From assembly GCA_030445865.1 (NCBI GenBank), contig JASUSV010000013.1, positions 1 to 38,559 on the forward strand: a stretch of 38,559 nucleotides of DNA. The letters run 5' to 3'. The position numbers were made by a program, and so were the translations under genes. This DNA is from Clostridia bacterium (lineage in GTDB: Bacteria > Bacillota > DSM-521 > Neomoorellales > Neomoorellaceae). How positions within the stretch are numbered: position 1 is the first letter of the stretch; every line of letters starts with the position of its first letter. Below, piece by piece: positions 18,867 through 27,295 of the stretch. The notes beneath the pieces are model-generated. The model saw only the letters and a list, made by a program, of their open reading frames with translations. It did no database searches and was not told where the DNA came from.

Positions 18867-19607
18867 TTAAAAAGCTTCCACCCCCCGACCTCCCAGGCCT
18901 TGCAAAGCCAAGGCTATTTCCTCAAAACTTAATTTCTCGAGATTAAATAGGGTCCGGCGCCGGCCTATATCGGCCGGAGAGTGGGCATCGGACGAAGCCA
19001 CCAGAGGCAACCCGGCACACAAAGAACCCCACTGCCGCCGCGCATCCCCAGCCCTCAACAGGCCCAGCTCTAAAGCCGCCACTTCCAGGCCCGTGGGTAA
19101 AAAACCCAGCACATTCAAGAGGCTGTATGACGGCCGGTCTACATGGGCCGGGATAACTAGTCCCCTCAGGGCCTTGACCCGGCTGGCGACCTCCGCCACG
19201 CCGGCCCGGATCCCGGTCACCAAAAGCCTTTCTTCATAACCCCTGACCTCCCCGCAGGCGTCAAGTAACAACTGTGGGCCAAAAATTTCTATCCTGTTTT
19301 TTTGCGGCGGCAGAAGGCGGTAAACTTCTTCCTGCCAGGTTTCGGCAAGTTCAATTTTGGGAAAGAGGCAGACCAGGTGAACGTCCTCTTGAGTCTGCAC
19401 TTCCATGCCCGGCAGTACCAGCAGGCCTGTTCCGGCCGCTGCCTCTATGACCGCCCGCGCGTTCCCGGCCGTATTGTGGTCGGTAATGCCGATTATGTCC
19501 AACTGCTGCCGGCCGGCGGCATCTATGATGGCCGGCGGGGTCATATCCCCGGCAGCGCAGGGCGAGAGGGCCGTGTGCAGGTGCAGGTCGGCATAGTAAA
19601 TGCGCAT
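18867..19607 (-). CDS. PHP-domain phosphoesterase
   Basis: The 246-residue protein is a PHP (polymerase and histidinol phosphatase) domain hydrolase. Metal ligands are visible in ADLHLHTALSP, ITDHNT, PGMEVQTQ, IPAHVDRPSYS and SSDAHSP. ATG at 19607 is chosen because the family starts with this motif and because it lies 1 nt after the DRTGG stop (TAAAATG), suggesting coupling; an in-frame start 36 nt upstream lies inside the DRTGG gene. The substrate is unknown. Its place between a sensor-like module and hydC suggests a signalling or small-molecule turnover role, which is inference. Confidence 0.88.
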   Translation of the reverse strand: MRIYYADLHLHTALSPCAAGDMTPPAIIDAAGRQQLDIIGITDHNTAGNARAVIEAAAGTGLLVLPGMEVQTQEDVHLVCLFPKIELAETWQEEVYRLLPPQKNRIEIFGPQLLLDACGEVRGYEERLLVTGIRAGVAEVASRVKALRGLVIPAHVDRPSYSLLNVLGFLPTGLEVAALELGLLRAGDARRQWGSLCAGLPLVASSDAHSPADIGRRRTLFNLEKLSFEEIALALQGLGGRGVEAF

Positions 19608-19608
19608 T

Positions 19609-19944
19609 TTAACCCGTAAGCAGGCGGTATAGACGGCCGGCACTGACGAAGGTCGTTTCGCCCGTAAGCAATACGGGGATCCTCTCGGCTGCAGCCCGGT
19701 TTAAAGTGGCCGCCTCGGGCCGCCTCCCGCCGGTGATAACCACCCCGGCTACCTCGGCCAGCAAAGCCACAGCGATGACATTCTCGTGGACCTGAATGGT
19801 GAACCACAAAGAATCCTTTGGGGCGTGGGCCATAACGTCGCTTAAAAGGTCCGAACAGTAACCCCAGCACACTTCCCTATCCAGGTCTACGTCAGGGTTG
19901 GCCACTTGCAGTCCTAGCTCGCGAATTATCTCGATCAGCTTCAT
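19609..19944 (-). CDS. DRTGG-domain protein (second copy)
   Basis: The 111-residue protein consists almost entirely of a DRTGG domain, a small module often linked with CBS domains and phosphotransacetylase. Recognisable parts are CSDLLSDVMAHAPKDSLWFT, a hydrophobic core, and GVVITGGRRPEAA. It is a paralogue of the DRTGG protein at 21730-22086: both share the S-D-hh-S-D-V-h-A pattern and a GxRP element. The ligand is unknown. It lies 19 nt after the H-cluster-like protein gene and is coupled to the PHP gene. Confidence 0.8.
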   Translation of the reverse strand: MKLIEIIRELGLQVANPDVDLDREVCWGYCSDLLSDVMAHAPKDSLWFTIQVHENVIAVALLAEVAGVVITGGRRPEAATLNRAAAERIPVLLTGETTFVSAGRLYRLLTG

Positions 19945-24965: not shown

Positions 24966-25238
24966 CTAACCCTCCGCCTCCTTCGCCGGAGGCCTTCCCG
25001 TGAAGGCGGCGCGCACCCGCACGCCGGGGAGGACGCCCAGCTTTCCCGTTAAAGCGCCGATCTCATCTGTGGTACCGTCTACAATCAGGGCAATGACCGC
25101 CACACCCCGCTCGCGGTAAGGTATACCCATGCGCCCTATAATACAATCGGCGTAGCGGCTTAAAATAGCGTTAACCTGGGGAGCCGCCTTTTCGCGCTGT
25201 TCGATTACTATACCTATAACTCCAATGCGCCGTTCCAA
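24966..25238 (-). CDS. TM1266-type putative [FeFe]-hydrogenase system regulator
   Basis: The 90-residue protein matches the TM1266 family, small ferredoxin-fold proteins annotated as putative regulators of the iron-only hydrogenase system. It reads MERRIGVIGIVIEQREKAAP at the start. The pattern ADCIIGRMGIPYRERGVAVI and IVDGTTDEIGALTGKLG is typical. TTG at 25238 was chosen because GGAGGTGG lies 4 nt upstream and the family starts here; the longer GTG form at 25289 adds 17 residues with no SD. It is the first gene of TM1266-hydE-hydG. A 14-bp palindrome lies 36 nt upstream of the TTG. It may bind DNA or a ligand; this is not shown. Confidence 0.85.
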   Translation of the reverse strand: MERRIGVIGIVIEQREKAAPQVNAILSRYADCIIGRMGIPYRERGVAVIALIVDGTTDEIGALTGKLGVLPGVRVRAAFTGRPPAKEAEG

Positions 25239-25273
25239 AAAACCACCTCCAGGGCCTTCGGTAACCCGGGCGC

Positions 25274-25287
25274 GAAAAACGTTTTTC
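25274..25287. promoter_or_regulatory. Perfect 14-bp palindrome upstream of the TM1266 gene
   Basis: GAAAAACGTTTTTC is a perfect palindrome between the terminator at 25301-25336 and the TM1266 TTG start at 25238. It is a plausible operator, perhaps for TM1266 autoregulation. Confidence 0.4.
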
Positions 25288-25300
25288 ACTTTCAGTTTAA

Positions 25301-25336
25301 ATAAAAAACGCCTACCCTAAATATCTAAGGTAAGCG
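25301..25336 (-). terminator. Strong terminator / possible attenuator before TM1266-hydE-hydG
   Basis: On the minus strand CGCTTACCTTA (25336-25326) pairs with TAGGGTAGGCG (25319-25309) over 11 bp, with three G-U wobbles and a 6-nt loop, followed by TTTTTTA. The stem contains wobbles only when read on the minus strand, which fixes its direction. It ends the transcript from the promoter at 25727-25755. The stop of the micro-ORF lies in its 5' arm. Confidence 0.85.
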
Positions 25337-25351
25337 CATAAAGTGCCTCAT
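25325..25351 (-). CDS. Putative 8-codon leader peptide (micro-ORF)
   Basis: On the minus strand ATG at 25351 opens an 8-codon frame, MRHFMRLP, ending at TAG 25325. GGAGG lies 6 nt upstream of the ATG. Its last codons are the 5' arm of the terminator at 25301-25336, so a ribosome translating it would block the terminator stem. A copy of the conserved hyd motif lies 27 nt before its ATG, as before hydC and hydG. The small size makes chance possible. Confidence 0.45.
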   Translation of the reverse strand: MRHFMRLP

Positions 25352-25366
25352 ATATCTCCTCCCCCC

Positions 25367-25720
25367 TTGGCCTCAGGGATGCTTCCGAAACATTCCCCGT
25401 GCCAGGGCGCTGGCGCCGGCTCCTGATGGGCTCGCCAGCGAGCCGTAGGCTCACCCTCGCCCTTCGGCGGGGTTCCCGGCCAATTCGGCATCCTGCCTCA
25501 GTGGCCGGCCTCGGGCCTCCATGCCCTCGGCCCCGCCTCCGGGCTCGGTTTCGCCAACGGCTCGCAGGGCTCGCCCAAAGTCGCCTTACGCCAGCATCCC
25601 TGGCATTTTCATATTTCTTTCGGAAGCACCGCCTCGCGGAACCCTCGGCCTCAGCAACATAAAAGTACCGTCCTGTCGCGCAGGATAACCTGGAACCCGG
25701 GCGATCGGACTTCATGCTCT
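25367..25720 (-). ncRNA. Candidate structured RNA or leader, GC-rich, upstream of TM1266-hydE-hydG
   Basis: Read on the minus strand, a transcript starting near 25720 would be about 415 nt long to the terminator. An outer stem pairs GGTGCTTCCGAAA (25630-25618) with TTTCGGAAGCATCC (25390-25377). Inside it GCCAGGG (25604-25598) pairs with CCCTGGC (25407-25401) and GCTGGCG (25595-25589) with CGCCAGC (25415-25409). Further in are smaller hairpins, such as GGCC-GA-GGGC with GCCC-GA-GGCC (tandem G-A pairs) and CGCC-GAAG-GGCG. The 3' arm of the outer stem is copy 3 of the conserved hyd motif. No Rfam family was recognised with certainty. It could be an independent RNA or a cis-acting leader. Confidence 0.6.
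25379..25410 (-). repeat. Conserved hyd motif (copy 3, in the putative structured RNA)
   Basis: This segment matches 29 of 32 bases with 23848-23879. On the minus strand it holds CCCTGGCACGGGG and then GTTTCGGAAGCAT, whose end lies 27 nt before the ATG of the micro-ORF. Orientation and spacing agree with the copies before hydC and hydG. Confidence 0.7.
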
Positions 25721-25726
25721 AGTGAT

Positions 25727-25755
25727 ATTTTACACATATTTGAATAAAATAGCAA
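25727..25755 (-). promoter_or_regulatory. Promoter of the putative structured RNA
   Basis: On the minus strand TTGCTA (25755-25750) and TAAAAT (25732-25727) are separated by exactly 17 nt. The -35 box lies 10 nt past the hydF stop. A transcript would start near 25720. Confidence 0.6.
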
Positions 25756-25764
25756 GCGAGCATT

Positions 25765-26985
25765 TTAACTAATTAAGGACTGAAGCCACGGGAAAGGAGA
25801 CAAGGCCCTCCTGAGGATCCCGTGAAGGTAAGCGATGGCCACGCCGTAATTTACTATAGGCACGCCGGCCTCGCGCACGCGGGCAATACGGGCCAGCATT
25901 TCCCGGCGATTGATCATGCATCCGCCGCAGTGTACCACCAGGCTGTACTGCCCCAAATCTTCGGGAAAACTCCCGCCGCTCGCCCAGGTAAAACGCAGTT
26001 CGCCGCCTACCACCTGGCGCAACCAGCGGGGAATCTTCACGGTGCCGATGTCGTCTTCTACCCGGTGGTGGGTGCAGGCTTCGGCAATGAGCACCCTGTC
26101 GCCGGGTTTAAGTTTGTCAATAGCGGCGGCGCCCGCTACCAGGGTTTCTAAGTCCCCCTTGTAGCGCGCGAAAAGAATAGAGAAGGAAGTAAGATCCACA
26201 TCCGGGGGTGTATCGGCGTCGGCCTTCAAAAAGGCCTGAGAATCCGTGATTACCATCCGGGGCTTACGATTAAGGGTGGCGATAGTTTGTCTGAGCTCCC
26301 TTTCCTTGGTTACCAGGGCGATGGCGTCGTGGTCCAGGATATCCCGGATGGTCTGGACCTGGGGCAGGATGAGACGGCCTTTAGGCGCAGCCAGGTCGAT
26401 AGGCACCACCAGCACTACCAGGTCGCCCGGCTGCAGGAGATCGCCGACGATGGTCTGCTCCTCCCACGCCGGCGGTGAGGAGCGGATCATCTGGATCTTC
26501 AAATCACCTATGCCCTGCCGGGTGCGGGCGCTTACCGCCACTACCGGGATGCCCAGTTCCTGCGCATAGGAGTTTTTCTTATCCTCCGAAAGGGGATGGA
26601 CATCGACTTTGTTCAATACGCCAATTACCGGTATATTTCCTTCCCTGGCCCGGTTTACCAACTCCCGGTCAAAGGAAGAGATTCCTTCCCCCGCATCTAT
26701 AACCAGGAGCACCAGGTCGGATTTGCGAAATACCTTGTAGGACTGTTCCACCCGCAGTTTACCCAGAGGGCCGGTGTCGTCAATACCCGCGGTATCGATT
26801 ATTACCACCGGGCCCAGGGGGAGTATTTCCATGGATTTATAAACGGGGTCGGTAGTCGTACCGGGCACATCGGACACCACGGCTACTTCCTGGTTGGTCA
26901 GAGCATTAATCAAGCTGGATTTACCGGCGTTGCGCCGGCCGAAGATGGCGATATGCAAGCGGTTACCGCGCGGCGTATCCTGCAT
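25765..26985 (-). CDS. hydF: [FeFe]-hydrogenase maturation GTPase HydF
   Basis: The 406-residue protein is the scaffold and GTPase on which the diiron part of the H-cluster is carried to HydA. The GTPase motifs are FGRRNAGKSS (P loop), PGTTTDPV, DTAGIDD and NKVD. The C-terminal cluster ligands are in CTHHRVEDD and HCGGCMINRRE. ATG at 26985 was chosen because GGAGGGAGG lies 5 nt upstream; the TTG at 27003 lies in that SD region. It is followed by a new promoter rather than directly by the TM1266 gene, so it is probably a single-gene transcript. It is divergent from the response regulator gene. Confidence 0.95.
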   Translation of the reverse strand: MQDTPRGNRLHIAIFGRRNAGKSSLINALTNQEVAVVSDVPGTTTDPVYKSMEILPLGPVVIIDTAGIDDTGPLGKLRVEQSYKVFRKSDLVLLVIDAGEGISSFDRELVNRAREGNIPVIGVLNKVDVHPLSEDKKNSYAQELGIPVVAVSARTRQGIGDLKIQMIRSSPPAWEEQTIVGDLLQPGDLVVLVVPIDLAAPKGRLILPQVQTIRDILDHDAIALVTKERELRQTIATLNRKPRMVITDSQAFLKADADTPPDVDLTSFSILFARYKGDLETLVAGAAAIDKLKPGDRVLIAEACTHHRVEDDIGTVKIPRWLRQVVGGELRFTWASGGSFPEDLGQYSLVVHCGGCMINRREMLARIARVREAGVPIVNYGVAIAYLHGILRRALSPFPWLQSLIS

Positions 26986-27295
26986 GGCGGCCTCCCTCCG
27001 CAAGCATCAATTTTCTTTCCTGCCGAAAGGATTCGCCCCTATTATAACATAAAGGCGGGAGCACCGGAAAAATTCAGCGAACACGGCACCCTGTTCGCGA
27101 ACTTTAGGCCTCGCGCAAGCATGATGAATTCTCAAACCGGTGCCCGCCGTCTTAAAGCAATGTTATTGAAAATTATATAAAAATCGCAATGAATGTTTAA
27201 ATTATTGAATACAACTTTTCCATTGACTATACTGTAGTTGGGGAATTGAGTTGGGCAATAGAGACCGCAAGGGGTCAGGTTAAGGGGGTCGGGAT
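26986..27295. other. Divergent regulatory region between hydF and the response regulator gene (310 bp)
   Basis: No gene is seen. A minus-strand TATAAT (27046-27041) serves hydF, with TTCCGG at the -35 place. The + strand promoter at 27205-27233 serves the response regulator. Between them lies a perfect inverted repeat, GCGAACA (27077-27083) and TGTTCGC (27092-27098). A longer imperfect one pairs GGCGGGAGCACCGG (27055-27068) with CCGGTGCCCGCC (27137-27148). Confidence 0.6.
27205..27233 (+). promoter_or_regulatory. Promoter of the response regulator gene
   Basis: TTGAAT (27205-27210) and TATACT (27228-27233) are separated by exactly 17 nt. The transcript would start near 27240, giving a leader of about 55 nt before the ATG at 27296. 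Confidence 0.75.

Follow-up and report, generated by a model that had tools for sequence, protein, structure and literature searches.

In the 38,559-nucleotide stretch of DNA analysed here (the window), hydF is separated from the TM1266 regulator gene, hydE and hydG by a structured interval that ends in a terminator. Is this interval a leader that serves the H-cluster maturation genes, a possibility raised by the first-pass annotation, or something that occurs elsewhere as well? An intergenic region that is structured and flanked by a terminator can also turn out to be a dispersed repeat and not a private riboswitch.

A dispersed repeat between hydF and TM1266

The source genome is a draft assembly of 2.08 Mb in 90 contigs, and its host belongs to the same family as Moorella (genus g7 in our sample). 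Family models confirmed the annotated gene order hydF, TM1266, hydE, hydG, with all four genes on the minus strand. The features of the interval are as follows.

25765-27003, minus strand: hydF (TIGR03918)
25727-25755, minus strand: weak promoter-like site after hydF, outside the repeat (TTGCTA-17-TAAAAT)
25631-25638: target-site duplication copy 2, GCCTCGCG (flank comparison)
25378-25630, minus (RNA) strand: 253-bp transposable repeat, defined by its copies, ends and target duplications
25618-25630, minus strand: terminal inverted repeat at the RNA 5′ end, GGTGCTTCCGAAA (end-pattern search)
25378-25390, plus strand: terminal inverted repeat at the RNA 3′ end, reading GATGCTTCCGAAA on the plus strand (end-pattern search)
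25370-25377: target-site duplication copy 1, GCCTCAGG, identical to copy 2 at 6/8 positions
25356-25366, minus strand: Shine-Dalgarno sequence GGGGGGAGGAG directly after the element (from the sequence)
25325-25351, minus strand: 8-codon ORF MRHFMRLP, with its ATG start 26 nt past the element
25308-25337, minus strand: intrinsic terminator of 13 pairs and a T run, outside the repeat
24966-25238, minus strand: TM1266 regulator gene (TIGR03959), start placed by sequence and homologue alignments

The terminator assigned to the end of the interval was recovered (minus strand 25337-25308). A promoter with 17-nt spacing had been placed after hydF; the site exists (minus strand 25755-25727), but it matches at only 9/12 positions, and the region holds two such sites where 0.4 would be expected. 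Two things had been overlooked, namely that the interval contains a repeat dispersed in dozens of copies, and that a Shine-Dalgarno sequence and an 8-codon ORF follow it. This ORF is preceded by a strong Shine-Dalgarno sequence and stops within the terminator stem, ahead of TM1266; it could encode a leader peptide or be what is left of a lost gene. For TM1266, a start at TTG 25238, behind the Shine-Dalgarno sequence GGAGGTGG, is more likely than one at GTG 25289 (window 24966-25289).

A DNA search of the source genome found the repeat at no fewer than 40 places with 83-100% identity, complete copies being bounded at window positions 25378-25630; the flanks of the repeat had no other match in the genome-wide search. 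A covariance model gave 62 matches in the same genome, many of them truncated by contig ends. The terminal inverted repeats are 13 bp long, and the end pattern GRTGCWTCCGAAA was counted 65 times in the genome and not once in a reversed control. The 13-bp outer stem that had been noticed in the interval is formed by these ends of the element. Target duplications were counted in 37 complete copies from the source genome (G000) and one relative, G018. Duplications of 8 bp agreed at 6/8 or more positions in 25/37 copies and at 8/8 in 13/37, while mismatched flanks reached at least 6/8 in 0.7% of pairs; an exact 9-base duplication was found in 0/37. These ends and duplications are like those of a miniature inverted-repeat transposable element (MITE). 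Two core-less derivatives of 97 bp retain the ends and the outer stem and lie between perfect 8-bp duplications (CACTCCAG and AGAAAGTG), indicating that the core is dispensable for mobility.

Relatives carry similar RNA cores inside repeats whose ends differ. In G005, related cores are bounded by ends of the CTGAGTTATCCCC type, with duplications of about 9 bp such as ATTATTCAT, GGGAAGGAG and GGTACTTAG.

Searches with the exact end pattern and for the ISL3 family did not find the parent transposase. No exact-end pair at transposon spacing, as expected of a full-length parent, was seen in the source genome, the draft assembly of which breaks at copies. An ISL3 transposase was rejected as parent, being absent from G000 and present in G005 in copies without matching ends; L053 in G007, which has one matching end, is merely a solo remnant. 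Phages gave no match to the element. A 74%-identical copy (L265) lies at 19559-19737 of NZ_CP061968.1, a 27-kb record without annotation that bears the label of a Klebsiella pneumoniae plasmid and is possibly a contaminant. In the closed genome G142, the copies listed on contig C1 are all on the plus strand, and two of them are 1.7 kb apart. A T-box leader was seen near an element copy in G003 (L045, 1707-1978), scoring 90.6 bits against the Rfam cut-off of 93.

RNA structure and covariation

The minus strand from 25376 to 25631 folds into a long rod at -167.5 kcal/mol with a z-score of -11.0, compared with -8.6 for the plus strand. The parts of the fold used below are these.

25411-25589, minus strand: conserved RNA core, a rod with tandem G-A loops and an apical three-way junction (model R1)
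25509-25530, minus strand: apical hairpin 1, CCGAGGGCAUGGAGGCCCGAGG, with GGA at 25520-25518 and a tandem G-A at its base (alignment)
25483-25499, minus strand: apical hairpin 2, GAGGCAGGAUGCCGAAU, with GGA at 25493-25491 (alignment)

The window core scored 156.9 bits (E 6e-36) against model R1, in which this copy is itself included. Shared cores were found throughout the order and beyond, and in the sampled phylum the RNA family extends over 32 bacterial families.

Covariation was assessed in 37 diverged copies, aligned without reference to structure. In the RNAalifold consensus, 26/34 pairs showed two-sided changes. In a 58-pair structure, two-sided changes were observed at 47/58 pairs against a mean of 28 in shuffled alignments, and in 256 cells against 88.5; none of 500 shuffles reached either value, in a test that is inflated by related sequences. 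When the partners were slid by 1-3 columns, paired cells fell from 86% to 32-42%, a control that is partly favourable by construction since the same alignment had yielded the structure. Pair types vary widely, and AU, GC and CG all occur in hairpin 1. In our own phylogenetic covariation test the signal of sub-family structure prevailed, with only the top pair above the null, and we therefore relied on the counting test with its two controls. The scale of the covariation and the variety of pairs leave little doubt that the RNA structure is real.

Seven two-by-two internal loops have GA opposite GA in 20-31 of the 37 copies. This is the geometry of tandem sheared G-A pairs and is present solely on the minus strand of the window. 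GGA lies in the loop of hairpin 2 in 35/37 copies and of hairpin 1 in 28/37, the other 9/37 lacking it there; the window copy has both. Well-aligned GGA columns are 92-100% conserved and their neighbours are variable. Thus both the structured RNA and the tandem G-A motifs of the first-pass annotation have held up, the former through the strength of the minus-strand fold and through covariation in homologues, a check named in advance. The same annotation had named, as grounds against its RNA, a match to a dispersed repeat lacking any RNA signature; the element is indeed a dispersed repeat, but one with a strong RNA signature.

Orthologous sites in Moorella and in g91 were also compared. Paired positions differed in 43/696 cases and unpaired positions in 52/386 (p 8e-5), a difference to which base composition could contribute. 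Pair-keeping changes made up 17/36 at these sites, against 25% from a simple neutral rate (p 0.003); among single changes alone they made up 10/29, and the excess was not significant (p 0.17).

Sub-families (L001-L030, L043-L045 and L110-L149) differ through block swaps at helix tips, in which GA/GGA-bearing segments give way to segments of the TTAA type (CCGCCGAAGGGCG versus CCGCCTTAAGGCGCG and ACTGAGGCAGGATGCC versus ACTTAAGTCTGCGATGCC are examples). Like swaps were seen in different genera.

Position of the copies relative to genes

Complete copies in G000 and G018 were scored for a Shine-Dalgarno sequence and start codon within 70 nt on one side alone. By this measure 21 copies were in the sense orientation and one was antisense (p 1.1e-5), and 19 of the 21 sense-side starts fell 18-31 nt past the element, at around 25 nt. 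The start of the MRHFMRLP ORF has the same spacing. Sense copies about 25 nt ahead of a start would place the RNA, if transcribed, in a 5′ leader or an intercistronic region. In Moorella the orientation bias was weaker, at 18 versus 5 hand-listed sites. Among the downstream genes, family models identified rpmF, pth, aroF (DAHP synthase), hbd (3-hydroxybutyryl-CoA dehydrogenase), spoIIGA, atpD (ATP synthase beta), fba (class II aldolase), hisI/E, AIR carboxylase and ybaB, which have no obvious common theme. Copies often lie between co-directional genes.

Three core-less short derivatives, the two of 97 bp and one in L014, likewise face a Shine-Dalgarno sequence. Placement and orientation may therefore stem from target choice and not from a function of the RNA.

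The whole element is inverted at leuC between Moorella species (L113 versus L137/L038), and between species of g91 at the single-copy site between ctpA and glycerate kinase (L213 versus L210/L214). At different Moorella genes (L120, L121, L125, L126, L130, L135 and L148), the Shine-Dalgarno sequence directly adjoins the element's 3′ tail, AAGTTATTTTC, as though part of the region for translation initiation came from the element.

Relation to TwoAYGGAY, CsrA and other systems

An Rfam search, one of the checks suggested for the interval, returned nothing relevant for the window at either gathering or permissive thresholds, and the Rfam model of TwoAYGGAY (RF01731) had no match in the source genome. 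Two related copies in G032 (L047 and L147) scored 39.6 and 42 bits against TwoAYGGAY, where the cut-off is 43; R1 finds both at E near 1e-12, and neither sequence is part of the R1 model. R1 and RF01731 mark the same places in G128, G138, G243, G149, G078, G232 and G168 (for example contig C34 of G128, at 64526-64707 and 64539-64696). A search with the Rfam model showed TwoAYGGAY itself to be multi-copy in many genomes. As that model has no match in the source genome, the element is to be regarded as a divergent relative and not as a scoring member of the class; that it is a mobile TwoAYGGAY-like element we take as nearly certain. TwoAYGGAY is an orphan class with tandem G-A in a stem, for which CsrA binding was proposed in 2014 from two GGA hairpins (PMC4333381); its function is unassigned in the literature found. 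Our literature search did not find the family described as mobile.

The csrA gene of the source genome is canonical, with fliW upstream and the usual LVLTR and VRRE residues, and the window copy has the paired GGA-loop hairpins looked for in a CsrA-binding RNA. In a sample of 299 genomes of the phylum, in which related genomes are not independent, CsrA was present in 59/62 R1-positive and 154/237 R1-negative genomes (p 4.5e-7). With either model (R1 or TwoAYGGAY) the figures were 74/78 with a match and 139/221 without. CsrA is common in the group, so that the association is partly phylogenetic; co-occurrence of CsrA with the RNA is supportive, not decisive.

We consider it probable that the element is a MITE-like non-autonomous repeat whose cargo is a TwoAYGGAY-type RNA, a mobile 5′ leader predicted to bind CsrA. 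For the CsrA mechanism we offer a tentative proposal, which may or may not hold: the two GGA hairpins of one element RNA would bind one CsrA dimer, each copy would tag its transcript for CsrA-dependent control, and all copies together would titrate CsrA. At the hyd site the RNA would arise downstream of hydF, ahead of the 8-codon ORF and the terminator. A more speculative extension, which we think rather unlikely, is a transposable regulon in which a MITE sets a CsrA-responsive leader at a fixed distance before dozens of unrelated starts, different transposons in different genera having captured the core, so that CsrA regulons would be rewired by transposition.

Equally doubtful, in our estimation, is that the copies are useless, their fold being inherited from a functional ancestor and their oriented insertion being a property of the transposase. 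The clean target duplications and inverted ends, the mobility and similar placement of core-less derivatives, the whole-element inversions and the lack of a theme among target genes are all as such a plain MITE would have them. Covariation among copies with different ends, however, requires selection on the RNA in many lineages, and the lower divergence of paired positions at orthologous Moorella and g91 sites also speaks against it, with the reservation on base composition given above.

The location upstream of genes, often between co-directional ones, recalls the Correia (NEMIS) elements of Neisseria, which occur upstream of genes, undergo inversion and are cleaved by RNase III (PMC10969869). 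A CsrA-independent transcript-processing element of this kind, with a stem that an endoribonuclease would cleave or that would shield the mRNA downstream, is improbable here: conserved G-A pairs interrupt the rod every few base pairs, which would make it unlike a perfect RNase III substrate, and the conserved GGA loops would be left unexplained. We give slightly less weight again to a trans-acting CsrA sponge with no local effect. Dozens of copies with two GGA hairpins each, in a genome that encodes CsrA and FliW, would suit it, but the copies lie in leaders and not in free-standing sRNA genes, and most other genomes have fewer of them (g91 just one).

A riboswitch or attenuator dedicated to H-cluster maturation, suggested by the position between hydF and TM1266-hydE-hydG and by the Shine-Dalgarno sequence, short ORF and terminator that come after the RNA, is extremely improbable and largely refuted by the dispersal of the element: the same element precedes unrelated genes, the strong terminator separates it from TM1266, which has its own Shine-Dalgarno sequence beyond, and no association of element and hyd genes was found in relatives. 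There the gene order differs from that of the source genome (the hydF-TM1266 site was sought as a strict empty site), and none of the TM1266 homologues searched has hydF directly upstream. As far as these analyses reach, the cis-acting leader of the H-cluster genes proposed at first is not borne out, and a specific sensor for hydrogenase maturation is not supported.

The mobile TwoAYGGAY-type leader that we favour ties an orphan RNA class to mobile DNA and to a defined position in mRNA leaders, and thereby opens the function of the class to concrete tests. Should the RNA act in cis, the element would be a clear example from bacteria of RNA-based control spread over many genes by a transposon.

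Among known systems, Correia/NEMIS, ERIC, BOX and RUP elements are likewise short, have inverted ends and many copies, often lie upstream of genes and can invert (PMC10969869), but the cargo of the present element, unlike that of Correia/NEMIS and other MITEs, is an RNA with strong covariation and tandem G-A loops. HEARO and the IscB omega RNA are also structured RNAs within mobile multi-copy elements. The element studied here differs in having target duplications and inverted ends; an identity with these RNAs was rejected, as there was no Rfam match and the IscB N-terminal domain is absent from the source genome and most copy-rich relatives. With CsrB, CsrC and RsmX/Y/Z, to which Rfam gave no match either, the element shares GGA in hairpin loops and possible titration of CsrA; those sRNAs are free-standing and most of them have more sites, whereas the element has two GGA hairpins, lies in leaders and is mobile. 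The closest likeness is to TwoAYGGAY (RF01731), in the three-way junction, the two GGA-loop hairpins, the tandem G-A, the overlapping matches and the multi-copy occurrence. The difference is that here the RNA is carried by a repeat that has inverted ends and target duplications, that its rod is longer and that it is positioned at gene starts.
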